Below, in pieces: positions 19,015 to 35,906 of a stretch of 35,906 nucleotides of DNA; position 1 is the first letter of the stretch, and every line of letters starts with the position of its first letter. Under the pieces are notes generated by a model. It was not told where the DNA came from. It did not search any database and saw nothing but the letters and a program-made list of their open reading frames with translations. The translations under genes and the position numbers were made by a program. The stretch is from a virus: positions 1 to 35,906 of the IMG/VR virus record IMGVR_UViG_3300023175_003987; one strand, given 5' to 3'.

Positions 19015-19776
19015 TCATAGTGTTCTTCTTTCTATGTCTTCTTCTGATAATTCAGATCCCATCCAAACTTCGATTACTTTAACTGGATCAGATCCGACAT
19101 TAACAGCGTAATGCCAAGTATTAACAGGAATATCAATACTATCACCAGAATGATAGATCTGAGAAGTTTTAAGACCATCTTCGAATTCTAAATTCATCAT
19201 AAGATCTCCATCAACGATATGCCAATGTTCAGATCTTTTAAAATGTCTTTGATCTGATAAATTTTTATCTTTTGCAATAGTAAGTTCTTTTACTTTCCAA
19301 TGACCATTTTGATCTAAATTTCTATAATATCCCCAGTGTCTTTGAGTCTTTGGTTTATCCCATTCTGATAAAATCCAACTTGAAGAGTTCTTTTTATCGT
19401 CTCCTCCCACCGCAAATTCAAATGTAATATTATTATCTTCTACATCCATTTCTGGGATATTATCCGATGTACGGTCACCGCCGTTTGCAAATATTAAATG
19501 AGCGTCAGGATAATGAGCTCTTACTTGTAGTATAAAGTTTTTTGCTGTATTATCATCATCTAAAAATGTAAACGTTTCATCTACCATTTCTAAATTATTA
19601 ACAATAGCAAGACGCTCATTCCAAGGCATAAATGCTCTACCTTTTTTACGCTCCAACCACTCATCTGAATTTAATCCAACGACAAGTTTATCACCTAATT
19701 TTTTTGCTGCTCTAAAATATGCAATATGACCAGAGTGAATTGGATCAAATCCTCCAGTAACTAAAACTACTTTCAT
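19015..19776 (-). CDS. Cytidylyltransferase-cupin fusion protein
   Basis: This two-domain enzyme is probably involved in making or decorating a nucleotide-activated sugar. Residues 1-135 are a RfaE/TagD-type nucleotidyltransferase: GGFDPIHSGH with His14 and His17 (the HxGH signature), the ANGGDR motif at 97-102, and a Ser-rich SSSW at 131-134 where the family has its ISSTR-like loop. Residues about 145-245 resemble the cupin of type II mannose-6-phosphate isomerases (HWGYYRNLDQNGHWKVKEL, then RHFKRSEHWHIVDGD with His178, His184 and His186, and His222 in NTWHYAV). The stop of the upstream gene abuts its ATG (TAA-ATG), so it is translated with the methyltransferase and propeller genes. The exact sugar substrate cannot be read. 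Confidence 0.85.
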   Translation of the reverse strand: MKVVLVTGGFDPIHSGHIAYFRAAKKLGDKLVVGLNSDEWLERKKGRAFMPWNERLAIVNNLEMVDETFTFLDDDNTAKNFILQVRAHYPDAHLIFANGGDRTSDNIPEMDVEDNNITFEFAVGGDDKKNSSSWILSEWDKPKTQRHWGYYRNLDQNGHWKVKELTIAKDKNLSDQRHFKRSEHWHIVDGDLMMNLEFEDGLKTSQIYHSGDSIDIPVNTWHYAVNVGSDPVKVIEVWMGSELSEEDIERRTL

Positions 19777-22089: not shown

Positions 22090-22419
22090 CTAATTCCAGT
22101 TAGGAGTAGTAAATGTTGTTTTCTTTTTATCTATTTTATTTTGTAATGTATTATTTATTTTATCTTGCTTAGCACTAATATCAGACATAACCCAATTAAG
22201 AACTATATCTTTAGTTAAATCAGCTAATGCAACAAAATCAGATGAAGAAGTAGATTCGGAACTTACTAATGTTTTACCAACATAACTAGCAGTTATTCCA
22301 TCAGTATCTGTAGCAATTTTTTTCCATTGAATTTCTACTACAGAATTTTCGTTTACTTCTCCGTCTGTATTTGTTTCATCTCTCAATCCAAGTTTTAAGA
22401 TGTGATACGAATAATTCAC
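22090..22419 (-). CDS. Small phage protein, paralogue A, unknown function
   Basis: This 109-residue protein shares a pattern with the next upstream gene: Y-x-Y-x(4)-LxLxDExNxDG near the start, a QW/YWK strand followed by TDxxG, then VALADLTKD-IVLNWV. The region looks like a small beta domain followed by an amphipathic helix (VALADLTKDIVLNWVMSDI). The C-terminal 25 residues are lysine-rich. Proteins of this type are common small orphans in marine myophages, with no known function. It has its own perfect late promoter, so it is expressed late and could be a virion or assembly component. Confidence 0.7.
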   Translation of the reverse strand: MNYSYHILKLGLRDETNTDGEVNENSVVEIQWKKIATDTDGITASYVGKTLVSSESTSSSDFVALADLTKDIVLNWVMSDISAKQDKINNTLQNKIDKKKTTFTTPNWN

Positions 22420-22441
22420 GACAGAATCCTTTGTTTAATTT

Positions 22442-22449
22442 TATTTATA
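22442..22449 (-). promoter_or_regulatory. T4-type late promoter for paralogue A
   Basis: Exact TATAAATA on the minus strand, about 23 bases before the ATG at 22419 in the short gap between the paralogous genes. Confidence 0.8.
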
Positions 22450-22457
22450 ACTTATTC

Positions 22458-22841
22458 TTAAGAGTCTACTTCAGCTGGATCAGCTTCTGGTGCTGAAGCC
22501 CAAGGAAGTGTATCTGGCTCTGTCGTTGCCGTTTCGTCAATTTGTCTTTGAATTTGTGCATCAATGTGTGCTTTATAATCAGCGTCGCCATCAACTACAG
22601 CTTGAATCCAACCAATAACATCTGATTCTTGTAAATCTTCAAATGCTACAAAAGCGCCTTCAGATACTTCTGATGCGCTAAATGGTGTTGCGCCAGAAAA
22701 TTCACCTGAATCACCGTTTTCGTCTGTACCAGTTACTTTCCAATAAGTTTGGCAGACAGCATTAGATAATGTAACACCATCACTGTTTACTTCATCTTTT
22801 ACTTTAAGATTAGTAACAGAATATGTATATGTAAAAGCCAT
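22458..22841 (-). CDS. Small phage protein, paralogue B, unknown function
   Basis: This 127-residue protein aligns with its downstream neighbour over about 85 residues: YTYSVTNLKVKDEVNSDG, then TYWKVTGTDENGDSGEFSG, AFVAFEDLQESDVIGWIQ. The tryptophans in the YWK strand and the GWI helix are shared. The C-terminal tail is different: acidic and Pro-rich, where paralogue A is basic. The pair looks like a local duplication with diverged tails. Function is unknown. Two late-promoter-like boxes lie upstream. A late virion-associated or chaperone role is possible but unsupported. Confidence 0.72.
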   Translation of the reverse strand: MAFTYTYSVTNLKVKDEVNSDGVTLSNAVCQTYWKVTGTDENGDSGEFSGATPFSASEVSEGAFVAFEDLQESDVIGWIQAVVDGDADYKAHIDAQIQRQIDETATTEPDTLPWASAPEADPAEVDS

Positions 22842-22919: not shown

Positions 22920-23480
22920 TTACTCAGTGAACAACTGTAAATCTACAGGAATGCAAATTCTATAATCAGAAAAATAAGGATTTACTGAATGATACAAGAA
23001 ACTCGGGAAAATAAAAACATCTCCTGTTTCTGGTATATATTCTTCCTTTTCAAATAAATGATAAAAAGGTGGTGGATAACCTCTATTTGCGTTAAATCTT
23101 GGATCATGAAAAACAATCGACCCACCAGCATCTGTTACTTCAGCAAGTGGATAAAAAACGGCTGATAAAAGATTACCACGATGATTATGAAAATTCATTC
23201 CCGTATTTGTCATTTTTGTTATCCAAGCGTTTGTTCGATAACCTGCAAAATCACTTATAGACTTATTTATAGTTTTCTGTAAATATTCATCAAAACAATT
23301 ATAAACTACTTTTTTAAATTCTTTAATTGGTTTTGAATCATTATCGAAAAAATTTTTACCAGCTAATTCACCATTCTCTGGTGTATTAAGATCATAATTT
23401 GTAAGAATATAGTCTGATAAACCTTCGACATGAAAATGACCAATACTTAATTTAGTTGGCCACAGATTATAAAAATTCAT
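22920..23480 (-). CDS. 2OG-Fe(II) oxygenase (phage hydroxylase type)
   Basis: This 186-residue protein matches the short putative 2-oxoglutarate/Fe(II) oxygenases common in marine phages. The double-stranded beta-helix signature is visible: W-I-T-K-M...NFHNHRGNLLSAVFYP (His98/His100, residues 86-111), GGSIVFHDPRFN at 119-130, GDVFIFPSFLYHSVNP at 153-168 with the second iron His164, and Arg174 in YRICIPV as the likely 2OG-binding arginine. It would use O2, Fe(II) and 2-oxoglutarate to hydroxylate a target, which is unknown. The ATG follows a strong AAAGGAG site. It is transcribed divergently from the cupin/radical SAM operon. Confidence 0.85.
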   Translation of the reverse strand: MNFYNLWPTKLSIGHFHVEGLSDYILTNYDLNTPENGELAGKNFFDNDSKPIKEFKKVVYNCFDEYLQKTINKSISDFAGYRTNAWITKMTNTGMNFHNHRGNLLSAVFYPLAEVTDAGGSIVFHDPRFNANRGYPPPFYHLFEKEEYIPETGDVFIFPSFLYHSVNPYFSDYRICIPVDLQLFTE

Positions 23481-23532: not shown

Positions 23533-23549
23533 GTTGTAATGGAAAATTG

Positions 23550-24014
23550 ATGAATTTCTCAGACTTTGAACAATGGCTATACTCTAATGAGTGTTTTGAA
23601 AATCATGATGTATCTTATATTGATATTGAAGGCCTTCAGCATTACTTAGATCAAACAGATTACCATGCATATATTGCAAAGGTAGGAATACTTATTGCTG
23701 AAAAAAATACAATCAAAGTAGAACAATATGAAAAAGTATTAAAAATAGTTGACAAAACGGCGCATGTGTTTTATAATCAAGATAATGGGCCAACTTTTAA
23801 ACTTCATCAAGACCCAGTTGATGTAATAATAGAATGTTTAGATGGTGAAAAAGATTTGGAAGTACGTGGAGCTAGAGTTACATTAAATCCAGGTGAATCA
23901 TTATTCATTCCAGCAAATACAAAGCATAGAGCAATTAATAGTAAAAAGGCATTAATGATTTCTTATGGCATTAGCGACACAGAAACACTTAGTAGTATAC
24001 GTAAAAACAACTGA
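23550..24014 (+). CDS. Cupin-domain protein
   Basis: This 154-residue protein opens the plus-strand operon. Residues about 80-130 form a cupin: FKLHQDPVDVIIECLDGE with His86, Asp88 and Glu95, then ARVTLNPGESLFIPANTKHRAIN with His126, resembling the metal site of small single-domain cupins. The N-terminal 75 residues are helix/strand mixed and not diagnostic. The start is the ATG at 23550, with GGA six to nine bases upstream; an in-frame TTG just before it is less likely. It overlaps the first radical SAM gene by 50 bases, an unusually long overlap that implies tight coupling. It might be a dioxygenase, isomerase or sugar-binding sensor; the reaction is not known. Confidence 0.75.
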   Translation: MNFSDFEQWLYSNECFENHDVSYIDIEGLQHYLDQTDYHAYIAKVGILIAEKNTIKVEQYEKVLKIVDKTAHVFYNQDNGPTFKLHQDPVDVIIECLDGEKDLEVRGARVTLNPGESLFIPANTKHRAINSKKALMISYGISDTETLSSIRKNN

Positions 24015-24996
24015 AACTTGCAATTTAAATTGTGATCATTGTTTTACTTCTGGTACTAAAGGTAGAAAAATATATTTTGATCCTATAAAGACTGCAGATT
24101 GGTGTAACCAATTAGATACTGGAGATAATAGAGTTCACTTTGAATTTCATGGTGGAGAGCCTATGCTTGCTCCATTAGAGGATCTTAAAAAGTTTGTAAA
24201 AATAGTAAGATCTCAGTGGGATGATAGATTAACAATAGGCATTACAACAAACTTAGTTTATAAGTTAAAACAAGAATACATAGATTTCTTTAAAGATATT
24301 GTTAAGCAAGATTTTATAGGAACATCTTGGGATCCGAAGATAAGATTTACTAATGATAAACAACTTAAATTATGGGAAGATAATGTAAAAAAATTAGTAG
24401 ATGAAGGTCTTGCAGTTAAATGTTTTGTATCTGTATCAACTGATGTTGTTAATATGGAGCCAATTAAAATTGCAAACTATATGGAATCTTTAGGTATTGA
24501 AGAATTATCATATGAAAGATTAACTCATAATGGCAATGCTACAATTAATTTAGAAATATTTCCGCATAATAAACAACTGGATAATTTTTGGATGTTGATG
24601 CATCAAACAACTCGTCATCACAAAGTAAAAAATACTTTCTTAAATACTGTATATAATAAATTTGATTATAACGAAACACGTAGTGGAACGTTTTGTAGAG
24701 ATTGTGAACAAAAATTATTTACTATAAACGCAGATGGAACAATAGCAGGCTGTCCTAATTCAGCTCCTACTGATTTTTATGGTCATATAGATGAGCCAGC
24801 TCCTGATGTAAAAGTATGTCCAAAAAGAATGACTGCTATAGATAATGAAATACATTTAAGAAATCCCAAATGTTATGAATGTCCTGTATTTAATTTATGT
24901 CATTCTGATTGTCATCAATTAAAATGGATGGATGGAGTATGCCCTGCACCTAAATCGCTTATGGTAGAATTAGCAAAGGAAAAAGAATGGATTTAA
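23965..24996 (+). CDS. Radical SAM/SPASM protein (rSAM1)
   Basis: This 343-residue radical SAM enzyme has the [4Fe-4S]-SAM motif C-x3-C-x2-C at Cys19, Cys23 and Cys26 (TCNLNCDHC) and the SAM-binding GGEP at 63-66 (FEFHGGEPML). The C-terminal third is a SPASM domain for auxiliary clusters: Cys244, 247, 263, 285, 303, 306, 312, 316 and 326, including CYECPVFNLCHSDC. SPASM enzymes mostly modify peptides or proteins (PqqE, sactisynthases, sulfatase maturases). No precursor peptide is next to it. The ATG lies inside the cupin gene with a weak ribosome site, consistent with translational coupling. It overlaps rSAM2 by 10 bases. Confidence 0.92.
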   Translation: MALATQKHLVVYVKTTETCNLNCDHCFTSGTKGRKIYFDPIKTADWCNQLDTGDNRVHFEFHGGEPMLAPLEDLKKFVKIVRSQWDDRLTIGITTNLVYKLKQEYIDFFKDIVKQDFIGTSWDPKIRFTNDKQLKLWEDNVKKLVDEGLAVKCFVSVSTDVVNMEPIKIANYMESLGIEELSYERLTHNGNATINLEIFPHNKQLDNFWMLMHQTTRHHKVKNTFLNTVYNKFDYNETRSGTFCRDCEQKLFTINADGTIAGCPNSAPTDFYGHIDEPAPDVKVCPKRMTAIDNEIHLRNPKCYECPVFNLCHSDCHQLKWMDGVCPAPKSLMVELAKEKEWI

Positions 24997-26039
24997 TTAT
25001 TAAACCAACCGAAGTTTGTAATTTTAAATGCACATTTTGTTCTTCAACAGATATTGATCCGAATAATGCTGGGTTATTAAGTCATGATTATATTTTTAAA
25101 TTCTTAGAAAGATTTCCCGAAACTAATACTATTATTGTAAATGGTGGTGATCCTTTAATGGTAGAACCAGAATATTATTGGAAGATTATTAATTATTTAG
25201 ATGAGCACGATTTACCCGCAACAGTATCACTTACAACAAACTTGTGGCCTTTTTATAAAAAACCAGAGAAGTGGGTAGACTTATTTAATAACGAAAGAGT
25301 AGGTATATGTACATCATTTCAATATGGAGGAGGACGCCTTAAAGGTGATTATTCCGAATTTAGTGAAGAAGATTTTTGGAAATGTTCAGATGCTATGCTT
25401 AAATATTGTGGTTATAGACCAGACTTTATTTCTGTTATTGTAGATGAAAATGAAAAAGATGCATTAAAAAATGTAGAGCTCGCAAAGAAGATGGGCGTAA
25501 CGTGTAAATTAAATTATGCAATGGCAAGTGGTGTGCAAGGATCTACATATAGACTTAGTAAAATATATGAGATGTATGTTAAAATATATGATATGGGTTT
25601 AGTAGATTATGAGTGGAATACTATGCAAATGGCTAAACGTCTTATTGGAGAAAATACTACTTGTCCACAATTAAGAGAATGCGATATTGGAATAAGAGCA
25701 ATGAATCCTGGTGGAGACTATTATAGCTGTGGTGCTTTTGGTGATGATAAAGATTATTCTATTGATTTTGAAAAAGAAATGCAAGGAGGATTTGAAACAC
25801 CTTTACAAAACGATCCTCATATTCAAACAATGAAAATGGCATGCTATACATGTCCTATGTTTAAGATATGTAATGGTTGTAAAAAAACAATACGAGATAT
25901 GAAAAGAGAAGGAATTGTAGAAGATCATTGTAAGCATATGAAAACTCTTGCACCTAGAATATTAGAAATTAATGGATTAGATCCAAATAGTGTAACACCA
26001 TATATTAACGAAAGTATACCTTATGAATTTATCGATTAA
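24987..26039 (+). CDS. Radical SAM/SPASM protein (rSAM2)
   Basis: This 350-residue protein begins almost directly with the radical SAM motif: Cys11, Cys15 and Cys18 in VCNFKCTFC. The strand-2 motif is GGDP at 53-56 (IIVNGGDPLM), an accepted variant of GGEP. A SPASM-like C-terminus contains Cys226, 232, 248, 286, 289, 295, 298 and 315, including CYTCPMFKICNGC. The NPGGDYYSCGAF segment (240-251) is the usual strand before the auxiliary cluster. It has a good AAGGA ribosome site, overlaps rSAM1 by 10 bases and rSAM3 by 17, and is diverged in sequence from rSAM1. It may act in the same pathway on a later step or different residue, which is inference. Confidence 0.92.
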   Translation: MDLIIKPTEVCNFKCTFCSSTDIDPNNAGLLSHDYIFKFLERFPETNTIIVNGGDPLMVEPEYYWKIINYLDEHDLPATVSLTTNLWPFYKKPEKWVDLFNNERVGICTSFQYGGGRLKGDYSEFSEEDFWKCSDAMLKYCGYRPDFISVIVDENEKDALKNVELAKKMGVTCKLNYAMASGVQGSTYRLSKIYEMYVKIYDMGLVDYEWNTMQMAKRLIGENTTCPQLRECDIGIRAMNPGGDYYSCGAFGDDKDYSIDFEKEMQGGFETPLQNDPHIQTMKMACYTCPMFKICNGCKKTIRDMKREGIVEDHCKHMKTLAPRILEINGLDPNSVTPYINESIPYEFID

Positions 26040-27417
26040 TCCTACTTACTATTGTAATTTTAAATGTGACTTTTGTTATCTTACAAAAGAACAACTTAGT
26101 GATAGAAAGAAAATTACTCCAGAAAAATTAGATGAATTACTTAGTAATATAGAAGATCCTATTGAACATATTGATTTATATGGTGGTGAAATAGCTTTAT
26201 TAACACCAGAATATTTTTATTCAATTAAAAATGTTATTAAAAAGTATTATCAAGGTGTTATTAATATTAATACTAATTTTAGTGCTTTACCTGATTTTTT
26301 CTATGATGACGATATTAAAATTTCAGTGTCTTATGATTTCTCTGCCAGAGAAAAAGAACAGTTTGTTTTAAATAATATAATGGCATCAAAAAAGCCATTA
26401 TTCATATTAGTATTAGCATCACCAAAAGTATTAGAAAAAGATGTCGATGAAATGATATCAATTTTTAATATGTGTTCTAAAATAGAAACAGTTGAAATTA
26501 AACCTTACTCTACTAATCAATCAAATGCTCATAATGTTACACATAAAGATTTTGAAGAGTTTGTTAAAAAATGGATTGAAAGTCCAATTGAAAAAAAATT
26601 CCAATTTATAAATGAGAATCATATAAGAAATTCTTTAGATGCAAGATATAATGCTTTTTCTAATGATCATGTTTATATTACTCCAAATGGAAAATATGCG
26701 GTATTAGAATTTGATAAAAATGATAATGAATATTTTTTAGAATTAGATACATATAAAGAATATAAAAAATGGGCTGAACAAGAACCAGATAAAAATACAT
26801 CTGATATATGTAAAAGCTGTGTATATTATGGTAACTGTTTAACAGAACATTATAGATATGTAAAAGATTTAGATAATGGATGTAATGGTTATAAAGGATT
26901 ATTAGATTGGTATAATGATAAGATTAATAACGTTATTTTAAAATATAATAATCTTATAATTAAAGATATAGATATTTCTTATCCAATATTTAATGATCTA
27001 AAAAATCTTAAAGATAACAATGTTGATGGTCCTTTAGATATTGTTAATGGAACAGAATTTATACAAGAAATATTAGAAAAAACTTTAGGATTTAAATTAA
27101 AAATATTAAATAGTTGGTTAAATAAAACAATATATAAAGGGTATCTAAATACTTTTGATTGGCATAATGAAAAAGGCGCTGGCGGTAATCAAAATGTTAT
27201 GCCAGGAACACATGCTTTAATTATTTGGATAGATGGAGAAAGTAATCAAGGTGGACAACTTAAAGTTATGGATGATAATGCTAACATTAGTTCATTTGAA
27301 TTCGAAAAAGGAAAGGTAATAACTTTTCCTATAACTTGGTTTCATAGGGTAGAAAATTATACAGGAGATACACCACGAATAAGTGTAAATATTACGTATG
27401 AAAGATTGGAAAGCTAG
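26023..27417 (+). CDS. Radical SAM-2OG/Fe(II) oxygenase fusion (rSAM3)
   Basis: This 464-residue protein joins two chemistries. Residues 1-290 form a radical SAM module: Cys11, Cys15 and Cys18 (CNFKCDFC), a GGE at 54-56 (DLYGGEIALL), and a C-terminal cluster site Cys263, 266, 272 and 287 (CKSCVYYGNC). Residues about 300-464 resemble a 2OG-Fe(II) dioxygenase jelly roll: His381-x-Glu383 (FDWHNEKG), GTHALIIWIDGESNQGGQLKV, FPITWFHRVEN with His441, and Arg452 in TPRISVNITYE. The ligands form the H-x-E/D...H...R set. No frameshift or stop separates the parts, so it is a genuine single reading frame. Radical SAM enzymes are oxygen-sensitive whereas the C-terminal domain would need O2, so the pairing is unusual. 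Confidence 0.85.
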   Translation: MNLSINPTYYCNFKCDFCYLTKEQLSDRKKITPEKLDELLSNIEDPIEHIDLYGGEIALLTPEYFYSIKNVIKKYYQGVININTNFSALPDFFYDDDIKISVSYDFSAREKEQFVLNNIMASKKPLFILVLASPKVLEKDVDEMISIFNMCSKIETVEIKPYSTNQSNAHNVTHKDFEEFVKKWIESPIEKKFQFINENHIRNSLDARYNAFSNDHVYITPNGKYAVLEFDKNDNEYFLELDTYKEYKKWAEQEPDKNTSDICKSCVYYGNCLTEHYRYVKDLDNGCNGYKGLLDWYNDKINNVILKYNNLIIKDIDISYPIFNDLKNLKDNNVDGPLDIVNGTEFIQEILEKTLGFKLKILNSWLNKTIYKGYLNTFDWHNEKGAGGNQNVMPGTHALIIWIDGESNQGGQLKVMDDNANISSFEFEKGKVITFPITWFHRVENYTGDTPRISVNITYERLES

Positions 27418-27805
27418 ACAAGCAGCGTATCATCTCGCTAATACAGAATTTAAAGATGATTTAAATGACGTTGATATTACTGTATCAGATGATATAGTAG
27501 ACGACGCGGTAATGCATTTTTACGAAGAAGTAGATGAATGGATTTATCCGGCTAAATCATATGTGGTTGCAATTTGTTATGCAACATGGTTATCAGAAGA
27601 TTATGGAGAAGATTTTTACGAAGTATTAGATGATCCAGAATTATTATTTAATAATGATCCGTATTTTGTACCATACTCTGAAGATGAAGGCACATACGAT
27701 GCAATACTTAGACAAATAGGTGAATTTGATCGAAATGACGGAATGGTTCCGGACATTTACGAATATTATAAAGAAGAAATGTTATATGGATTACGAACAA
27801 AGTGA
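27398..27805 (+). CDS. Small acidic protein in the radical SAM operon, unknown
   Basis: This 135-residue protein has no family I recognise. It is strongly acidic (many Asp/Glu, such as DDLNDVDITVSDDIVDD and a later EDYGEDFYEVLDDPELL), Tyr-rich and probably mostly helical. It has one Cys in AICYATWLSEDYG, no signal peptide and no membrane helix. It overlaps rSAM3 by 20 bases and rSAM4 by 20 bases, so it is made in step with both. Candidate roles are a partner or substrate-presenting protein for the radical SAM enzymes, or a modified substrate; neither is shown. It lacks the usual small-precursor layout (leader plus Gly/Cys-rich core). Confidence 0.7.
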   Translation: MKDWKARQAAYHLANTEFKDDLNDVDITVSDDIVDDAVMHFYEEVDEWIYPAKSYVVAICYATWLSEDYGEDFYEVLDDPELLFNNDPYFVPYSEDEGTYDAILRQIGEFDRNDGMVPDIYEYYKEEMLYGLRTK

Positions 27806-28853
27806 ACCAATAAAAGTTTTATTAGAACCTAAGAGACCAGAATTAGGTGAGATAGAATTAACTTTATTTGAGAACTGTCATTTAAATTGCGCTTTTTGTC
27901 ATCACGATAAAAAATCTACAGTAGGATTATCTAGAGAAGAAATATTTTCTAAGATACCATTAGTAGAAGAACATTTAATTAAAATGGAAGGAAGAGTTGA
28001 AACTTGCCAAATTAACATGGTGGGAGGAGAACTTTTTCAAGATAGAATATCTGACTGGGCATACGATGTTTATTATGATTTGCTTATTGAGATTAAAAAA
28101 TTATATGATAAGTATAATCACAAAATAAAAGTTGTTTGGGTAACATCATTTCAATTTAGTAAAAAAGATTTAGTTAAAAAATTATTAGATGATTTAAATG
28201 CAGCAAATATTCCTTCATATATTATTTGTTCTTATGACTTTGATGGACGACCACAAAAAGGACCATACCAAGATAATATAGAATATTTTGCAGATTATAT
28301 TATATCAATTAATATGGTTGCAACAGTTCCATCAATAAAAAAATTTATGGCTGACGATGATGAATATTTTCATTATCTTTATAATAAGTTTGATAATTTT
28401 TATTTTGATGATTACATACCAGATAAAGGTTTTGATTATTTAATTCCATCTGATAGTATGTACCTAGCATTTTTAAAATTTGTTTATAGGAAATATCCTG
28501 ATATAAATCCTATGAAAGATTTGATAGAAAAAAGTAGCAATCACATGCATTGCATGGCTTTAAATAAAGTAACAATATTTCCAGATAATTCTACATCAAA
28601 TTGTAGATGGAATAGATATACAAAAGAAGATTTTAATACACCTTTAAATAGAAAAGATAATGCTTCTATGATGCAAGCTTATATGGATGAGCACGGTTGT
28701 TTATCATGTAAATGGTGGAATAAATGTGGATTTAGATGTTATACACAATGGGATTGGAAAAACCGAGAACGCGATTTACCAGATTGTGTAATGCGTATGT
28801 GGTTTAATTATATGGAGAAGAAAAGTGAAGTTGAAATGTTACACACACGATAA
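27786..28853 (+). CDS. Radical SAM/SPASM protein (rSAM4)
   Basis: I place the start at 27786 (355 residues), because the reading frame upstream of it lies wholly inside the previous gene and MDYEQSEPIK has a GAAGAA-type site upstream. The radical SAM motif is Cys31, Cys35 and Cys38 (NCHLNCAFCHHD) and the GGE motif is at 80-82 (NMVGGELFQD). The C-terminus carries a SPASM-like set: CMALNKVTIFPDNSTSNC, then CLSCKWWNKCGFRC and a last Cys in LPDCVMRMW. The family resembles radical SAM/SPASM maturases. It overlaps the acidic gene by 20 bases and the next gene by 29 bases, closing the four-enzyme plus-strand series. Confidence 0.9.
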   Translation: MDYEQSEPIKVLLEPKRPELGEIELTLFENCHLNCAFCHHDKKSTVGLSREEIFSKIPLVEEHLIKMEGRVETCQINMVGGELFQDRISDWAYDVYYDLLIEIKKLYDKYNHKIKVVWVTSFQFSKKDLVKKLLDDLNAANIPSYIICSYDFDGRPQKGPYQDNIEYFADYIISINMVATVPSIKKFMADDDEYFHYLYNKFDNFYFDDYIPDKGFDYLIPSDSMYLAFLKFVYRKYPDINPMKDLIEKSSNHMHCMALNKVTIFPDNSTSNCRWNRYTKEDFNTPLNRKDNASMMQAYMDEHGCLSCKWWNKCGFRCYTQWDWKNRERDLPDCVMRMWFNYMEKKSEVEMLHTR

Positions 28854-29526
28854 GAGTGTATTTGAATTACAAAAATTAGAATACAAAACTAAACCTCCAA
28901 GTTGGTGGAAAAAAATTAAAAACTTTGCTCATAAGTTTGATATTAGATCTGGAGTAAATATTCCAGTACCAACAATCAAGACTTGTCCAGGAGTTGCAGA
29001 TTATATTCGTAAACCTATTACACTCAAATTATGGTCTGATGTTATATTTAATATAAAACCAGACGGTAAAGTAAAACTTGCAGAGCCCATCGAAAGTTTT
29101 AACAGAATTGGTGGTGGTGTGCATGAAGATTATCAATATGGAAAAGAACTTTATCCTGGTAGAACAGTATTTAAGCTATATGGTCCGTGGGCTATAGAAG
29201 GATCTGATAGAACAGAGTTTATGTTAAAAGAAATACATTACTCAGAAGATCTTCGTAAACATGATATATTAATATCACCCGGTATTGCTAATTTTAAAGA
29301 TCAGCATACTCTTAATGTGTTCCTTGTATTTCCTATTAAAGAAGAAGAATACACTGTACAATTAAAATATGGAACTCCTATAATGTCTATCTATCCTATG
29401 ACTGATAAAAAGGTTGAATTAGAACATTATCTAATTCCAAAAACAGAGTGGGATGGTTTTCAAAATAATTACCCAAGTACTTTCTTAGGAAGATACTACG
29501 CCGGGAAACACGCACGAAGTGATTGA
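28825..29526 (+). CDS. Conserved-looking phage protein of unknown function
   Basis: This 233-residue protein starts with GTG at 28825, preceded by a clear GGAGAAG ribosome site inside rSAM4. It carries KTKPPSWWKKI near residues 19-29 and a TCPGVADYIRKPITLKLWSDVIF stretch (about 52-74), then alternating beta strands (HTLNVFLVFPIKEEEYTVQLKYGTPIMSIYPM). I associate this layout (PP-x-WWK, TCPG..D, W-x-D) with a family of marine-phage proteins of unknown function, from memory and without a search. The C-terminus is GRYYAGKHARSD. It is the last gene of the plus-strand operon, and its end overlaps the end of a minus-strand radical SAM gene by 42 bases. It may be a partner or substrate protein; nothing in the sequence decides. 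Confidence 0.7.
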   Translation: MKLKCYTHDKSVFELQKLEYKTKPPSWWKKIKNFAHKFDIRSGVNIPVPTIKTCPGVADYIRKPITLKLWSDVIFNIKPDGKVKLAEPIESFNRIGGGVHEDYQYGKELYPGRTVFKLYGPWAIEGSDRTEFMLKEIHYSEDLRKHDILISPGIANFKDQHTLNVFLVFPIKEEEYTVQLKYGTPIMSIYPMTDKKVELEHYLIPKTEWDGFQNNYPSTFLGRYYAGKHARSD

Positions 29527-30504
29527 ATGATGTTTCATATAAGATAATACACCTTTGTCTATACAAGTCATTTGATTATGGCAATTACCACAGTTTTTTG
29601 TTTCTTGAGCGTAAACTAATTGCTCCATAAATTGATCTGTTTTAATTTCAGTCCAAGAATTAATATCGCTTTCATTTTTTACTTCAAATTCAGATGTTCC
29701 TATTAATGCAATATCATAAATGAATGGAGTCCAAAAAAATCTTTCATTACAATAAGTATAGTTAAGTTCTAATGATCCACCTTGAGCTTGATCGATAATT
29801 GTTTTAGGATATAAATCATCGCTAAAATCATATTGCTTCCATTTATTAATTAAATGCTTTTGTAATTTTGATTTAGGAGATCTAAAGAAAGAAGGGTTTA
29901 GTGTAAGTAATGAATTAAATCGTTCTTTTACTAACTTAGCCATTTCAAGTACTTGGCTATTATATTCGTCATCATTACCCATATTATAAACCATATAATA
30001 ATTTAAATCATCTTTAAATTTATTAAGTAGATTTAGTTTACTTTCAATTTTATCCCAATCAACAGGTAATTGTAATGCAATATTTGCATCATACATAAAT
30101 CCATCTTTCTTTGGAATACTATTTAATAAGTCTATGACTTCATCATCTACTTTTTCTAATGTAGTAACAAATTGAATAGTGGTAACTTTACTTAAACATT
30201 CTCTAAACGTTTCATCTTTTAGTAATGAAACAATATTATTATTACCAAATAAATCAGTAGGACCTATATTAATTGTTGAAACTCTAAATCCATTATCATT
30301 AAATAAATCAATTGCTTTGTTTAATCTATCATAAGATCCCATATTAGATCCTACTTTATTAACAAAACAACCTTTACATTTAAATTCACAACCAGATAAT
30401 ACTTCACAATTAAATTGCACTTTAATTTCATGTCCTTTATCAAAGGATAAGTTAAATTCTTTATCTGCTTGTGCGTGTTTTAAATTATCAGTAACTATTG
30501 GCAT
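29485..30504 (-). CDS. Radical SAM protein with GPTD motif (rSAM5)
   Basis: This is one of five minus-strand paralogues. With the start at 30504 (ATG, MPIVTDNLKH; 339 aa) it matches the MPIIKNN start of rSAM7. The longer frame to 30531 would begin with TTG inside the upstream gene. The radical SAM cysteines are 39, 43 and 46 (SGCEFKCKGCFV). Strand 2 ends in IGPTDLFG (Gly81-Asp84) where GGE is expected. Conserved later segments are NPSFFRS and TPFIYDIALIG. The C-terminal cluster is Cys305, 308, 314 and 331 (C-x2-C-x5-C-x16-C). The 3' end overlaps the convergent plus-strand gene by 42 bases. The start overlaps rSAM6 by 17 bases. Confidence 0.88.
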   Translation of the reverse strand: MPIVTDNLKHAQADKEFNLSFDKGHEIKVQFNCEVLSGCEFKCKGCFVNKVGSNMGSYDRLNKAIDLFNDNGFRVSTINIGPTDLFGNNNIVSLLKDETFRECLSKVTTIQFVTTLEKVDDEVIDLLNSIPKKDGFMYDANIALQLPVDWDKIESKLNLLNKFKDDLNYYMVYNMGNDDEYNSQVLEMAKLVKERFNSLLTLNPSFFRSPKSKLQKHLINKWKQYDFSDDLYPKTIIDQAQGGSLELNYTYCNERFFWTPFIYDIALIGTSEFEVKNESDINSWTEIKTDQFMEQLVYAQETKNCGNCHNQMTCIDKGVLSYMKHHSITSCVFPGVVSS

Positions 30505-31630
30505 TATAATACTCATTATCAAAAAGTTCAATCACTTGTTTATTTAATATACATTCTTTTCTGTTATTAAATATATTATCCATAACTTTAGGTATTAATC
30601 TATTACTACATATATTTAAATATTTGCAAGTAATACATTCTTTGTTATGACTGTTTTCTATTTGTTCATTAACTACATAATTTTTATAGTTAAGTATAGA
30701 TTTATGAATTGAATTATTAATTTCTATTTTAAAATCATCATTATATATTGCTGCATTTTCGTATATAAATGGAGACATATAAACATTACCATTATGAATA
30801 CCTATTACTGAATAATGAAATGCTTTGTGCGATAAATCACCTTGTAAAAAATGAATATTATTTTTAAAATAGTCTACATCTTTAGCAATATCATTTAATA
30901 AATCATTCCATTCAAACAATTTATTACCATGTTTATTTCCATTATCAAACGATCTTACTACAGATGGTAATATTTCTATTACAGTAGAATATTTGTTACG
31001 TATATAATTATTTGCTTCATATATTCTTTCTACAGATATATTATCGACGATATTAGTTGCCATAGAAATTTCAAATTCTAAATTACTATTTGCAAATGTT
31101 TCTACTCTTTCATCTAAAGCTTTTCTATAATCTTTGTCATCTAATACTTTATTAAGATCTAATGCTATTTGTACATCCCAAGCTTTTACTGTTTTTCCAA
31201 GTAAAGATTCTTCTATTAGTTTTAGTTTACCTTGAATATCTTTTTCATTAAGTGATCCATCTATAGAACAATTATGTTGTACATTTCTATTATCTTCTGG
31301 CATCCATGAAATTGCTTGTACCAATTTTTCATTATTAATAATATCAGTAAGGTTTTGTGCACCATAAAAATCTGTAGGTCCAATAACAATATCATCTAAT
31401 ACAATATGATTATTATCTTTTAATTCTTTTGCTAAATTATAAAATATATCAATAGACTGAGGATTCCAATTACCTTTTCTTTTTACAAAACATCCTGGAC
31501 AATTATAAGAACAACCTTCAAGTAATTCTAAAATAACTTGAATTTTATATTGACCCATAGAACTTACTGATGTAAACTCTTCACCTTGGCCACCATGTTT
31601 AACTATTTTTTCCCAGCTATCATTTAACAT
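30488..31630 (-). CDS. Radical SAM protein with GPTD motif (rSAM6)
   Basis: This 380-residue paralogue of rSAM5, 7 and 8 has the motif Cys40, Cys44 and Cys47 in EGCSYNCPGCFVKRKG and GPTD at 84-87 (DIVIGPTDFYGAQN). Shared features follow: PSVVRSFDNG, MSPFIYENAAIYNDDFKI, and a C-terminal cluster Cys332, 335, 341 and 360 (C-x2-C-x5-C-x18-C), two residues longer than in the others. The gene is very AT-rich (for example 12 G+C among bases 30601-30660). It overlaps rSAM7 by 11 bases and rSAM5 by 17. The function is unknown. The conserved aromatic SPFxYE strand suggests a shared fold and probably similar chemistry. Confidence 0.9.
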   Translation of the reverse strand: MLNDSWEKIVKHGGQGEEFTSVSSMGQYKIQVILELLEGCSYNCPGCFVKRKGNWNPQSIDIFYNLAKELKDNNHIVLDDIVIGPTDFYGAQNLTDIINNEKLVQAISWMPEDNRNVQHNCSIDGSLNEKDIQGKLKLIEESLLGKTVKAWDVQIALDLNKVLDDKDYRKALDERVETFANSNLEFEISMATNIVDNISVERIYEANNYIRNKYSTVIEILPSVVRSFDNGNKHGNKLFEWNDLLNDIAKDVDYFKNNIHFLQGDLSHKAFHYSVIGIHNGNVYMSPFIYENAAIYNDDFKIEINNSIHKSILNYKNYVVNEQIENSHNKECITCKYLNICSNRLIPKVMDNIFNNRKECILNKQVIELFDNEYYNANSY

Positions 31631-32774
31631 ATGATATATTTTTTAATTCCTTTAATCTTTTATCACCGTCTTTTGTTATTAAAAACTTTTTACGATATCC
31701 TTTTTTATCTTTTTCTACAGAATAACCATCCCAATCATACATGACTTGAGCGGCTTCATTATAGTTATGAATATTATTTATCATGTTTTCTTTGGGTGCA
31801 ATACATCTATCAACACCTAAGTAATCTCTTAATAATATAATTTTTCTATGATAACAACTAAAAAACAAAGGACAATTTTCGCATTCAGTATTTTTTGCTC
31901 TTTGTATTTGTGATTCATTTATATTTACAACATCATCAAAAGAATTAATTTTAAATATAGAATCATATATTGCCATGTTTTCATACATGAATGGAGATAT
32001 ATACCACTCACCTTTTTTATAATTTAATACAGTATAGTTCATTCCTGCATGCGAATGATCGACCATAATATTATTAAGTGTAGAACCTTTAATTAACTTA
32101 TTAAAATAATCATTAAAAGAATCTAGTGTTTTTAATATAATACTTGATTTATGAGATCTAGAAACCGATGGTATAAAGTCAATCGTTGTTTTAAATTCTT
32201 TAATTGCAAAATCATGTAATGAATGATAATTTAAATCATAATCATTTATATTTACGACAAATGTAAATGTAACTTCGTGTTTAATATTTTCATCAATATA
32301 TTTTAATTTATTCTTAATATTTTGTATATAATCAACTTCAAGAAATTTATGTGGATTAATTGCGACACCTATTTCTATTTCAGTATCTAAGTTAATATTA
32401 TCTAACCACTTCACCCATTTTTCAAGATCACCATCAATTAAAGTAGATACGAATGCGAGAATAGGAGAGTTCTCATTAATTAAATCAATAAGACTTGGCA
32501 TAACTTCATAAAAGTTTTCTGATGCCAAAAAGTCTGTAGGACCAATTAGCATTTCATCTACTAATATTCCTTTATCTGTTATTTCTCTTACAAAGTCGCA
32601 TGCAGATTTTAATTGAGATTCATCACTAGAATTACCACGTCTATGCACAAAACATCCTGGACATTTATGGTGACATCCATCTAATATATCAAGTTGAATT
32701 TTTACTGCAGACACTGGTTTAGTTTGAGTTTCTGTAGTTAATTCGTAGTATAAATTGTTTTTAATTATCGGCAT
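31620..32774 (-). CDS. Radical SAM protein with GPTD motif (rSAM7)
   Basis: This 384-residue protein starts MPIIKNNLYYELT. Its radical SAM site is Cys34, Cys38 and Cys41 (DGCHHKCPGCFVHRRG) and the strand-2 motif is GPTD at 78-81 (EMLIGPTDFLASENFYE). PSVSRSHKSS, ISPFMYENMAIYDSIFKI and the C-terminal cluster Cys298, 301, 307 and 324 (C-x2-C-x5-C-x16-C) align with the other paralogues. It has an extra C-terminal tail of about 50 residues (basic, KDKKGYRKKFLITKDGDKR) absent from the others, which might bind a partner or nucleic acid (inference). It overlaps the flanking genes by 11 and 14 bases. Confidence 0.9.
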   Translation of the reverse strand: MPIIKNNLYYELTTETQTKPVSAVKIQLDILDGCHHKCPGCFVHRRGNSSDESQLKSACDFVREITDKGILVDEMLIGPTDFLASENFYEVMPSLIDLINENSPILAFVSTLIDGDLEKWVKWLDNINLDTEIEIGVAINPHKFLEVDYIQNIKNKLKYIDENIKHEVTFTFVVNINDYDLNYHSLHDFAIKEFKTTIDFIPSVSRSHKSSIILKTLDSFNDYFNKLIKGSTLNNIMVDHSHAGMNYTVLNYKKGEWYISPFMYENMAIYDSIFKINSFDDVVNINESQIQRAKNTECENCPLFFSCYHRKIILLRDYLGVDRCIAPKENMINNIHNYNEAAQVMYDWDGYSVEKDKKGYRKKFLITKDGDKRLKELKNISYVK

Positions 32775-33780
32775 ACATATATTCTTTAAGAGCTACACAT
32801 GTTTCTAAGTTTCTTGATTCCATATACATATGAACATTTCGTTCTGCACAATACATTATATATTCACAATTACTACATTCTACTTTATTTGCATAATTTA
32901 AATTTTTATCTAATAAATTATCATCTATATTTGATATAAAGAAATCATCTCTTTGTATAATAGCATCATATAAAAAAGGATTTACATATAATTTTCCATT
33001 ATAGAAACTATAATTTTGACATCCAAATCCATTAAAATTAACATGAAAAAATGTATATAAGTTTAACCATTTTTTGTCTATCTTTTGATTAATTAATTCT
33101 TCACGAAAACTTTTTAAATACTCGTTTACTTTACCTCTACTATTTGTATCAGTTAAAAATGAAGGAGTTATTACGATAGGTGCATTAAAATCATCATATA
33201 CTTTTTGACATAAATCGTTATATGATATTCTTTTAAAAACATCTTTACTATAATTTACTCTAAACTGCACAGAACCTTTTTTAAATAATTCTAATTTTTT
33301 ATACCATTCATCAAGTTCATTATCTAAATACTTATCAATATCTAATACAATTTTAAAATCAATATCTGGTATTCTATCTATATTATCATATAAATCCCAT
33401 AACATTTTATGTTTTTCTTTTACCATTTCTATTGGTTGATTTATTGTTGTAAGATATCCTATTGCAGAAATTTCATAAAGAGACTTCATTGAAGGATGTT
33501 TTATAATATCATAAAAGTTTTGAGAGTCAAATATATCTGTAGGACCTACAATAATTTCATCAGGATAATAACTACCGTCTTTAAGTAGATTATAGAGTTG
33601 TGTTAAGTTATCTAAACCAGTAAGATTTTTTCTAGGAATAAAACATCCTGGACACATTTGATTGCACCCATGAAGTATATCTAAATTGACTTCAGTCCTT
33701 AAAAAATCTTTATTAATTGGACTTTTACTTTCGTCGTAATTATAATATCCGGCGTTTGTATTATTCAGATGGACTATCAT
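32761..33780 (-). CDS. Radical SAM protein with GPTD motif (rSAM8)
   Basis: This 339-residue paralogue has Cys39, Cys43 and Cys46 (HGCNQMCPGCFIPRK) and GPTD at 79-82 (EIIVGPTDIFDSQNFY). PSFLTDTNSRG replaces the PS-x-x-RS motif of its relatives, so it is the most diverged in that segment. VNPFLYDAIIQRDDFFI is the family strand, and Cys302, 305, 311 and 328 form the C-x2-C-x5-C-x16-C site. The start overlaps the end of the unknown 262-residue gene by 20 bases, and its end overlaps rSAM7 by 14 bases. The reaction is unknown. Confidence 0.9.
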   Translation of the reverse strand: MIVHLNNTNAGYYNYDESKSPINKDFLRTEVNLDILHGCNQMCPGCFIPRKNLTGLDNLTQLYNLLKDGSYYPDEIIVGPTDIFDSQNFYDIIKHPSMKSLYEISAIGYLTTINQPIEMVKEKHKMLWDLYDNIDRIPDIDFKIVLDIDKYLDNELDEWYKKLELFKKGSVQFRVNYSKDVFKRISYNDLCQKVYDDFNAPIVITPSFLTDTNSRGKVNEYLKSFREELINQKIDKKWLNLYTFFHVNFNGFGCQNYSFYNGKLYVNPFLYDAIIQRDDFFISNIDDNLLDKNLNYANKVECSNCEYIMYCAERNVHMYMESRNLETCVALKEYMYADN

Positions 33781-34549
33781 CAGCCGAGACCACTACCGTA
33801 CCTGGTGGCATCATTTTTAATATATTTTCTACTATTCTTGTATGTACTAGTACGTAATATAAATCCGATCCAAAGTAAGTAGGTTTATCATTATAAATTT
33901 GTTTATTAAAATATTTAGTAAAACCGAAACGAGATGTAATAAGTAAAAAAGCATCCCAAGCATCTGTTACTATTCTAAGAACATTAACACCGCATGAAAC
34001 AGGTTTATCAATAATTTCTATTTCTTCAATAATAGGTTTAATATTTACTTCTTTTTCTTTAATATCATCCGGTAACTCATTATAAAATTTGTGCAATACA
34101 AAAGCAATGAGTTGGGATAATGTATTACATAATTCATCAATTAACTCCAGATTATTTTCTACTATTTCGATTATTTTATCTTTTGGCATTAAAAATGTTA
34201 ATTCTTCTTCACCAATATTAAATTCATATTGTAATCTGGTTTTAATACACATAGTAGTAAATCTTGCAAGTAAACTACAATCTACCATAAAATCAGATTT
34301 AATATATTCAATAATTAAATCTTCATCTATTTCAGAAAAATGGCATTTGAAATTAGTGTTTGAAAGATAAATTAATATATTTTTAGCAGTTAGCTTTTCT
34401 CTAGATTTTGTATAGTCTACCCACAAGACAAACTCTTTATCATTTTCTTTTTGCTTGTATATATCAACTAGATCTTGTGGAGCTAATGGAAGAGCGTATG
34501 CTTTTTTATCTTGGTATTTTTTCTTTTGATTCACACTTTGTTCAATCAT
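33761..34549 (-). CDS. Unknown protein embedded in the minus-strand radical SAM operon (A)
   Basis: I do not recognise this 262-residue protein. It is mostly helical with a Lys/Gln-rich start (NQKKKYQDKKAYALPLAPQD), a strongly hydrophobic/acidic helix pair around residues 120-150 (KIIEIVENNLELIDELCNTLSQLIAF) and a Pro/Ser-rich end (PPGTVVVSADDSPSE). There is no enzymatic motif, signal peptide or clear transmembrane helix. It is 14 bases after the next unknown gene and overlaps rSAM8 by 20 bases, so it belongs to the operon. Context suggests a carrier, adaptor or substrate for the radical SAM enzymes, but a virion role is equally possible. Confidence 0.75.
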   Translation of the reverse strand: MIEQSVNQKKKYQDKKAYALPLAPQDLVDIYKQKENDKEFVLWVDYTKSREKLTAKNILIYLSNTNFKCHFSEIDEDLIIEYIKSDFMVDCSLLARFTTMCIKTRLQYEFNIGEEELTFLMPKDKIIEIVENNLELIDELCNTLSQLIAFVLHKFYNELPDDIKEKEVNIKPIIEEIEIIDKPVSCGVNVLRIVTDAWDAFLLITSRFGFTKYFNKQIYNDKPTYFGSDLYYVLVHTRIVENILKMMPPGTVVVSADDSPSE

Positions 34550-34563
34550 AATATTACCTTATT

Positions 34564-35661
34564 TTATAGTGGATATTTGTGAATTAAATATGGTATTCTG
34601 TTTTGTCTTTTACTGAAAAATTGTACATCAGTATTAATTAGTCTTAAATCTTCAGACAATGTTTCTATATTATAATCACCTTGTAATACCATTTTAACAA
34701 TAGGGAATACATTATTAATTTCTGTATATAAATCATTATATTCCCAACCACTACTAGATTCAGCAACTTTAGCATCATGAGCAGCAATAAATGCTGGATC
34801 GTCTTTTACTTTATTCCAAAGTTCTTCTAATTTATAAAATGCTAATGTATAGTTACCAGTATTAGCAGCATTTACATATACTTCTTTAAAAAATTCTTTT
34901 TTGTCTGTAGCATAATTATTTGAGTCAGTTGCATGCTCGTTCATCCAATCTATTACTGATAATAAGTATGCAGTGTAATGACGTCTTGATGTGAAATGTT
35001 CCATAACATCTTGTGCTAAAACAGATGAATGAATTGTAAGCTTTTCAATTATTAAATTTTTAACACCGTCGCATGGATAAGTATCATTTAAAAAGAATAA
35101 TAAATCATAACTAAAATTCTTTCCATCTTGATATGTAATATCAAAAGCTGGAGTATCAGAATCTGCTAGTGTATCTAAACAATGTTGTCTTGCGTCATTT
35201 AAAATAGTTGAATCACTCATAAATGATAGCACCAAGTCTGATTCTACAATTGCTTCTATAAAATCAGCTGTAATTTCATTTATAGATGTATTTGAGTTTT
35301 CATAAAAGCCAGAAGCATCTAATAAGCCAGCAGTGTAACGAGAAAATACGTTAAGCATATCACTTTCATCAGTAAATGCAATGATATACTTATCACTATT
35401 TTGTAGAAATGCAGAGTTAGCAACATCTGTAAATTCACTAAACGCTATATAATCACCAGCACCAGTTCTTATACTTTCTGCTAAGGTTGTATATTCATCA
35501 TTAATAATTGATACTTCGGTATTACTAGAATTAACTACTAAGATATCACGAGCATCACCTGTATGATAAAAAGAATTTAATTCAAAAACAACAGTTCCTA
35601 TATTTGTTGTATTTGTAATATATTTCTTATTATTTAAATAATATAAACTCTGTCCAATCAT
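34564..35661 (-). CDS. Unknown protein embedded in the minus-strand radical SAM operon (B)
   Basis: The N-terminal third of this 365-residue protein is beta-rich and polar (IGTVVFELNSFYHTGDARDILVVNSSN), and the remainder is helical and Tyr/Asp-rich. The C-terminus is RIPYLIHKYPL. It has only two Cys (RQHCLDT and TYPCDGV), no catalytic motif and no signal peptide or membrane segment. Its ATG overlaps the stop of the upstream radical SAM gene by four bases (ATGA), and it lies 14 bases before unknown gene A. It resembles neither the radical SAM proteins nor a known virion protein that I can identify. A substrate or scaffold of the modification system is an inference from operon structure. Confidence 0.75.
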   Translation of the reverse strand: MIGQSLYYLNNKKYITNTTNIGTVVFELNSFYHTGDARDILVVNSSNTEVSIINDEYTTLAESIRTGAGDYIAFSEFTDVANSAFLQNSDKYIIAFTDESDMLNVFSRYTAGLLDASGFYENSNTSINEITADFIEAIVESDLVLSFMSDSTILNDARQHCLDTLADSDTPAFDITYQDGKNFSYDLLFFLNDTYPCDGVKNLIIEKLTIHSSVLAQDVMEHFTSRRHYTAYLLSVIDWMNEHATDSNNYATDKKEFFKEVYVNAANTGNYTLAFYKLEELWNKVKDDPAFIAAHDAKVAESSSGWEYNDLYTEINNVFPIVKMVLQGDYNIETLSEDLRLINTDVQFFSKRQNRIPYLIHKYPL

Positions 35662-35906
35662 GAAGCCTCTCCTAATATTTCCATTGCGTCGTCATTCCAT
35701 GTAAAATCAAATGGATTATAATAATCAAGTATATCTTTATTTAATACACATCCATCAATACCCAAAGTTTCTTGGGCTTCAAATATTAATCTGCTAGCAC
35801 AAGCAACAGAGTATTTACAATTAGAACAATCTTTTACTTTACTAGATTTATTTATACCTTTTGTTACTAATTGATTTTTTCTTTCTAATATTTCTTCAAA
35901 TGATAA
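35658..35906 (-). CDS. Radical SAM paralogue, C-terminal part only (rSAM9, runs off the window)
   Basis: Translating the minus strand from the window edge gives an open frame of 82 residues ending in a stop at 35658. It contains DCSNCKYSVACASRLIFEAQ, and a further Cys follows in LGIDGCVLNKD: the same C-x2-C-x5-C-x16-C signature as rSAM5-8. LGIDGCVLNK closely matches LGVDRCIAPK of rSAM7, and CSNCKY/ACASRL matches CITCKY/ICSNRL of rSAM6. The radical SAM core must lie beyond the window, so the Cys motif and GPTD cannot be checked. The stop overlaps the next ATG (ATGA). It extends the GPTD-type family to at least five members. Confidence 0.8.
   Translation of the reverse strand, partial: LSFEEILERKNQLVTKGINKSSKVKDCSNCKYSVACASRLIFEAQETLGIDGCVLNKDILDYYNPFDFTWNDDAMEILGEAS

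Follow-up and report, generated by a model that had tools for sequence, protein, structure and literature searches.

In proteusins such as polytheonamide, several radical S-adenosylmethionine (rSAM) enzymes, a B12-type rSAM enzyme and an Fe/2-oxoglutarate (2OG) oxygenase act on one peptide of a large precursor. Here we analysed a phage locus in which an rSAM and a 2OG oxygenase-like domain are joined in a single chain: the protein P0001 of the IMG/VR virus contig IMGVR_UViG_3300023175_003987, whose whole stretch of 35,906 bases is referred to as the window. We put the probability at roughly 60% that P0001 is a two-domain maturase, combining an rSAM enzyme with an auxiliary four-Cys cluster and a 2OG oxygenase, in a system that matures a tail-fibre-associated protein in the manner of ribosomally synthesized and post-translationally modified peptides (RiPPs). 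The candidate substrate is a small protein ending in CHxSCHxSCHxSRGRR, encoded together with a cassette of rSAM and 2OG genes. Unlike the proteusins, this arrangement implies no released product, places rSAM and 2OG in one chain and is linked to the tail fibre.

The SPASM/twitch peptide maturases (sactipeptide, ranthipeptide, darobactin and anaerobic sulfatase maturase) have the CxxxCxxC core and the auxiliary cysteines that are also found here. In contrast to these enzymes, the present ones are phage-encoded, and the protein proposed as their substrate is linked to the fibre and carries an unlisted tail. The best models for rSAM1 and rSAM2, encoded upstream of P0001, are DarE, DynA, PapB and the sulfatase maturase, all with scores far below the equivalog cut-offs; at 45.7 bits against the anaerobic sulfatase maturase model TIGR03942 (equivalog cut-off 349.45), rSAM1 does not qualify as a sulfatase maturase. 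The His-Xaa-Ser (Hxs) system is described with H-x-S substrate units and paired rSAM enzymes (PMC9062424), and our locus resembles it in the H-x-S units of the tail and in having paired rSAM enzymes. However, a Cys precedes each H-x-S, the tail ends in RGRR and 2OG enzymes are present, fused or separate; the scores against the Hxs equivalogs were 29.4 for rSAM1 (HxsB, cut-off 370) and 18.7 for P0001 (HxsC, cut-off 267.9).

Phage rSAM genes have been noted before: eight lie within the structural cluster of phage 332-Vera, where they were called ‘highly unusual’ (PMC12390700), six in DT01 were interpreted in terms of DNA repair and host metabolism (PMC8541153) and those of RP12 and RP31 appear among ‘other genes’ (PMC5468394). 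The enzymes of FLC6 are listed with no role assigned in the covered part of PMC8066314, and a study mining RiPPs in the prokaryote-phage context is without the term ‘radical SAM’ in its main text (PMC11118758). A literature search covering few subscription papers yielded no report of a virion protein being modified by phage rSAM enzymes, and the exact tail strings tried did not occur in the literature searched by full text at the same coverage.

The fused enzyme P0001

The window comes from a marine-type phage and is a myophage fragment with genes for the major head protein, portal, tail sheath and terminase. P0001 and its two domains are located as follows:

26023..27417, plus strand: P0001, rSAM3-2OG fusion, 464 amino acids in a single open frame
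26023..26931, plus strand: rSAM3 domain, residues 1-303, with C11/C15/C18 and auxiliary Cys 263/266/272/287
26941..27414, plus strand: 2OG-Fe(II) oxygenase-like domain, residues 307-464, with H381-x-E383, H441 and R452

Reading of the open reading frames (ORFs) confirmed the uninterrupted 464-codon frame reported in the initial annotation, and the residues it had named were found at their positions, including G54-G55-E56 as well as the cysteines and the putative ligands listed above. The frame overlaps the preceding gene (24987-26039) by 17 bases and the following gene (27398-27805) by 20 bases, as expected for a translationally coupled operon. P0001 carries the CxxxCxxC motif and scores 32.5 bits against the Pfam model Radical_SAM PF04055 (cut-off 29.5), which places it in the radical SAM superfamily. 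C11, C15 and C18 are invariant across 13 homologues, as are C263, C266, C272 and C287, which provide the auxiliary-cluster cysteines typical of the C-terminal part of SPASM/twitch enzymes; the SPASM model TIGR04085 was not among the 25 of 27 NCBIfam families listed for P0001.

The same 464-residue protein is encoded, with 100% protein identity, by two other contigs. L001 aligns to the window with 99.84% identity (18 substitutions over 10,984 aligned bases, 0 gaps) and L004 with 99.93% identity (10 substitutions over 13,392 aligned bases, 0 gaps). Since the three assemblies differ by 10–18 substitutions, contain no indels and all keep the frame, a frame error joining two genes, which the initial annotation had considered, is excluded to the extent that assemblies allow. 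The rSAM-2OG fusion is real and belongs to one population represented by three assemblies. It is also rare: among 31 viral contigs with a relative of P0001, 2 encode the whole fused protein and 29 the rSAM part only, in which the match ends near residue 303 and the ORF has at most 317 residues, some being cut by the contig end. In a set of 64 rSAM3-family ORFs in local DNA (duplicates included) three are 2OG fusions and one is a fusion to F2, a small acidic protein, in a single 448-residue ORF (L130:10930-12273). The rSAM-2OG architecture was seen in its own population only. That rSAM3 occurs with either of two cassette partners, 2OG or F2, fused to its C-terminus speaks for a physical complex.

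The C-terminal domain models as a 2OG-Fe(II) oxygenase-like fold. It was folded alone (residues 296-464, 21-row alignment), and the whole-chain alignment A2, which covers both domains, was rejected and left unused because stand-alone oxygenases were misplaced onto the rSAM domain. The model is a predicted double-stranded beta-helix oxygenase with a predicted local distance difference test score of 74.7 and a predicted template modelling score of 0.71. Foldseek against the PDB gave 2OG-Fe(II) oxygenases as best matches (E 1.3e-6, probability 1.00), and VIA-align against PHD2 (5ox6) gave Z 14.6 and a root-mean-square deviation of 3.5 over 157 residues at ∼10% identity. H441 and R452 are invariant among the 21 aligned rows of phage 2OG proteins, so that the predicted fold is accompanied by the HxD/E...H ligands and distal Arg of Fe(II)/2OG enzymes. 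The dioxygenase call of the initial annotation is thereby supported, and a fold other than the double-stranded beta-helix did not emerge from the model. Prolyl-hydroxylase type oxygenases (PHD2, P4H, PKHD) would share this fold; in contrast to them, the P0001 domain is fused to an rSAM enzyme and has HxE for HxD.

The Pfam model 2OG-FeII_Oxy_5 (PF13759) matched P0001 weakly, with 18.9 bits over residues 416-456 (cut-off 27). Searching with the domain directly was unproductive, as tblastn against phages gave no match and viral_contigs yielded matches in its own population only, and distant relatives were therefore taken from local profile searches. The closest stand-alone kin are cassette genes of other phages, namely L160:5104-5622 (E 7.8e-9) and L111:10008-10496 (E 2.4e-7), the latter located directly after rSAM3 and F2; they carry H-x-D as opposed to the H-x-E of the window domain.

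The recurring cassette and its conserved-tail protein

We clustered the ORFs of 36 loci, consisting of the 31 viral contigs, four named phages (Phosso, Atu_ph07, DT01 and FLC6) and the window. The recurring rSAM families are F0 (two copies in many loci), F1 (the rSAM of P0001), F5 and F7, together with the B12-binding rSAM family F26; also recurring are the 2OG families F4 (28/36 loci), F9 and F10, the cupin F11, F12 and F2, which is present in 36/36. Out of 50,697 phage records, queries with rSAM3, rSAM1 and F12 each returned the same seven, which belong to six phages, and in FLC6 the rSAM3 orthologue gp81 is flanked by two annotated 2OG-Fe(II) oxygenase genes. P0001 is part of a widespread and apparently undescribed phage gene set. 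As the number of 2OG genes differs between cassettes, the fused 2OG domain appears to be an additional tailoring step. A separate observation concerns F10 (L007:4885-5982 and copies), which represents another type of 2OG fusion, a protein of 366 residues with ∼165 residues of unknown N-terminal sequence followed by a 2OG domain.

Cassettes that are assembled far enough all contain small proteins whose C-terminus is exactly CHxSCHxSCHxSRGRR, a near-invariant tail, with sequences ending CHASCHSSCHGSRSRR and similar. They were found in the cassette of each named phage and in those viral contigs that extend far enough. Of 12 contigs tested with a DNA pattern for the three CH pairs, 7 matched, and none of the 12 matched the reversed control; the lack of a match in G002, G009, G010, G011 and G012 is uninformative, since the cassette mostly lies at or near the contig end there. 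The longer contig of the window's phage, G001, encodes two tandem tail proteins of 126 and 127 residues at about window-equivalent positions 36836-37602, ∼1 kb beyond the window end. The tail of this population is CHNSCHQSCHGSRGRR, in which N and Q take places usually occupied by A, S or T.

In the IMG/VR viral_contigs the full-tail pattern matched at least 120 stretches, compared to 2 for a control with His and Cys swapped. Although the pattern required no stop codon, the tail is the exact ORF end in 115 of the 120 matches listed, the remaining five lying in no ORF of at least 50 residues. An rSAM family gene is present in the flanking DNA of 110 of these 115 listed loci and a 2OG gene in 34, which suggests that 2OG steps may be optional; the nearest upstream family gene is rSAM1 (F0) in 72 and the nearest downstream one F12 in 77. 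Positions left free by the pattern are fixed too, with S12 in 121 and G14 in 115 of the 126 distinct viral proteins among the matches listed, while the N-terminal parts of these 126 fall into seven BLAST clusters of 72, 48, 2, 1, 1, 1 and 1. Of the 19 stretches matched in genome_contigs, 12 are at an ORF end, 11 of these with an rSAM gene. Seven (L180-L182, L185, L189, L193 and L194) were discarded as chance matches, being neither ORF-end nor next to an rSAM gene. L179, L183, L184, L186, L187, L190-L192 and L195-L197 carry the system in contigs filed as bacterial or archaeal, which are probably binned phage contigs.

Ten tail proteins, each one residue short, matched no NCBIfam model near its cut-off, and a 32-residue tail query gave no match by tblastn. 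All ten matched phrog_35144 (unknown function), mostly over the C-terminal part only. The tail protein and cassette together show the layout of a RiPP cluster, a precursor with a conserved core beside modifying enzymes. We also noted a variant, L174:7832-8512, in which the CHxSCH core is expanded to three blocks.

The tail gene is linked to the fibre by position. In several loci the genes that follow on from the cassette match PHROGs for tail-fibre assembly and tail fibres (F6, F3), and in G001 the two tail-protein genes come immediately after an ORF that is at least 2,304 residues long and has a tail-fibre PHROG match near its C-terminus. In L172 the equivalent ORF ends in a domain of 150 residues, which as query matched 75 ORFs, 73 of them inside the 139 motif-bearing loci listed. 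Among these 73, 33 end -1 to 12 bp from the tail gene, 39 sit 1.1–2.7 kb upstream of it, which leaves space for the cupin and rSAM1, and 1 is without a downstream tail gene. Three C-terminal fibre pieces were scanned for likeness to Peptidase_G2 (PF11962, cut-off 25): L064 and L138 showed it weakly (24.4 and 15.4 bits) and L172 did not. In T-even phages the long tail fibre gene 37 is followed by the small tip adhesin gene 38. The present layout is similar in that a small gene stands directly after a giant fibre gene but, in contrast to gene 38, this gene encodes a constant Cys/His tail and comes with its own modification cassette. In Atu_ph07, mass spectrometry delimited virion-protein clusters at CDS 31-76, 170-215 and 284-329 (PMC6102473). 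The tail protein gp170 opens the second of these; the RefSeq numbering agrees with that of the covered part of the publication for the portal (gp198) and the prohead core (gp204).

Layout of the cassette in the window

The remaining cassette genes of the window are:

22920..23480, minus strand: stand-alone 2OG oxygenase F4 (PF13759 45.8 bits, cut-off 27; family in 28/36 loci)
23547..24014, plus strand: cupin F11, which opens the operon (PF07883 Cupin_2 37.9 bits, above cut-off)
23965..24996, plus strand: rSAM1 (F0; TIGR04085 SPASM 27.1 bits, cut-off 27)
24987..26039, plus strand: rSAM2 (F0)
27398..27805, plus strand: small acidic partner F2 (phrog_20737; in 36/36 loci; fused to rSAM3 in L130)
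27720..28853, plus strand: rSAM4 (F5), with ATG at 27735
28825..29526, plus strand: F20 (phrog_7084, unknown function)
29485..30531, minus strand: rSAM-like, F7
30488..31630, minus strand: rSAM-like, F7
31620..32774, minus strand: rSAM-like, F7
32761..33780, minus strand: rSAM-like, F7
33761..34549, minus strand: F49; its positional counterpart in sister locus L167 has a weak match to F12 (E 1.6e-9)
34564..35661, minus strand: cassette protein F48, unknown function
35658..35906, minus strand: rSAM-like, F7, cut at the window end and continued in G001, where the tail-protein and giant fibre genes precede it

F12 is the family that adjoins the tail protein in other loci. In the F7 proteins (four in tandem at 29485-33780 and the one at 35658-35906) CxxxCxxC is present, GPTD replaces the usual GGE and Pfam scores are weak. 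The conserved stand-alone family F4 has H-N-H at the place of the expected H-x-D/E iron motif. Between F4 and the sugar-type genes, two paralogous small phrog_7802 proteins of unknown function (22090-22841, minus strand) recur in sister cassettes, and near the cassette a cytidylyltransferase-like domain is fused with the C-terminal cupin of a mannose-6-phosphate isomerase (19015-19776, minus strand).

Proposed maturation of the tail and alternatives

We propose that the cassette (rSAM1-4, F7, one or more 2OG enzymes, cupin, F2 and F12) would act on the CHxSCHxSCHxSRGRR tail of a protein encoded directly, or a couple of genes, after the tail-fibre gene. This protein would attach to the fibre through its N-terminal domain and offer its tail to the enzymes as substrate. 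The rSAM enzymes could introduce a C-H-activated change at Cys, His or Ser, such as thioether or C-C links or conversion of Cys to an aldehyde, and the 2OG domains could hydroxylate or otherwise oxidise the same stretch; that this happens at N or Q in the tail of the window population is only a guess. F2 and F12 may present the tail, and the fusion would keep two successive steps on a single tethered substrate. The target motif of sulfatase maturases is C-x-[PA]-x-R. The third Cys of the tail sits in C-x-[GSTAN]-S-R, which is close to it and makes Cys-to-aldehyde conversion one possible chemistry. The sequential modification of one substrate put forward in the initial annotation gains from the pairing of rSAM and 2OG genes in the cassettes of many phages and from the shared candidate substrate, although we still infer it; the oxygen-dependent switch offered there as another option was considered and found no support.

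Several points weigh against this proposal. The role at the fibre is drawn from synteny, no modified residue is on record and the tail genes lie outside the window. The count of gp170 as a detected virion protein of Atu_ph07 would follow from the cluster boundary. Five of the 115 listed tail loci are without an rSAM gene and only the 34 have a 2OG gene, a count that short flanks lower. The fused domain has HxE instead of the commoner HxD and stays below the Pfam cut-off. Finally, the tail-protein model had no Foldseek match at E <= 0.001 and two VIA rows with Z 2.1–2.4.

The alternative that survives best, though we regard it as unlikely, is a free RiPP (a bacteriocin-like toxin, signal or counter-defence peptide) that would be cut from its precursor and released, with the fused enzyme as a tailoring step. 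A constant C-terminal core on a small protein, with many rSAM enzymes encoded beside it, is indeed a RiPP layout. However, in the cassettes inspected we recognised neither a transporter nor a protease, the protease being sought through family searches only, and the N-terminal part of the tail protein is a sizeable domain that looks folded in the one modelled. The position directly after the fibre gene in 33 loci and that of gp170 at the start of a virion-protein cluster also disagree with a released peptide.

Slightly less probable still, the tail could be an unmodified metal-binding (Cys/His) knob, since Zn or Fe could be coordinated by its three CH pairs, with the enzymes acting on another product encoded close by, for instance F2, F20 or the fibre. 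No gene accompanies rSAM3 more constantly than F2, and in L130 the two are fused, but the F2 sequences inspected showed no fixed short motif of a comparable kind, and in most loci rSAM1, F12 and the tail gene lie immediately next to one another. We consider it improbable, and a little more so, that the enzymes modify a sugar or glycan on the virion or host surface instead of a peptide. The window has a weak FkbM methyltransferase match and a nucleotidyltransferase/mannose-6-phosphate isomerase fusion adjoining the cassette; however, the FkbM-like family F18 is found in 6/36 loci only and the nucleotidyltransferase gene clustered with none, whereas the tail protein is present in every cassette reaching far enough and its gene adjoins rSAM genes.

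A viperin-like enzyme making an altered nucleotide for defence or counter-defence is very hard to reconcile with the data: the best NCBIfam match of P0001 is viperin NF038283 and PADLOC pVip scored 31.7 bits, but the NCBIfam score of 31.4 bits is far below the cut-off of 180 and covers residues 9-88, the generic core, and the cassette context differs. An assembly or frame artefact, which the restriction of the fusion to one population might suggest, is scarcely credible given the three concordant assemblies described above.

By kind, the system we prefer is a RiPP-like maturation cluster whose carrier, substrate and rSAM-2OG fusion are new. Its fuller form is more tentative, and we give it somewhat less than an even chance: in diverse jumbo and T4-like phages, up to nine rSAM-type enzymes together with 2OG oxygenases would make a non-standard group on the fibre-tip tail, cross-linked, aldehyde- or metal-bearing, that would serve host attachment in adsorption, with anaerobic-type and oxygen-dependent C-H chemistry following one another on this tail, as the fusion would show. 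The significance of P0001 is larger than the initial annotation stated, as it is one part of a gene set with a candidate substrate, neither of which the initial annotation had noticed. With this candidate named and its tail invariant, the puzzle of the phage rSAM genes becomes testable on virions already isolated. If the proposal is true, the fusion would be a ready bifunctional rSAM/2OG enzyme for study, and phages would put non-standard chemistry into a part that likely touches the host.

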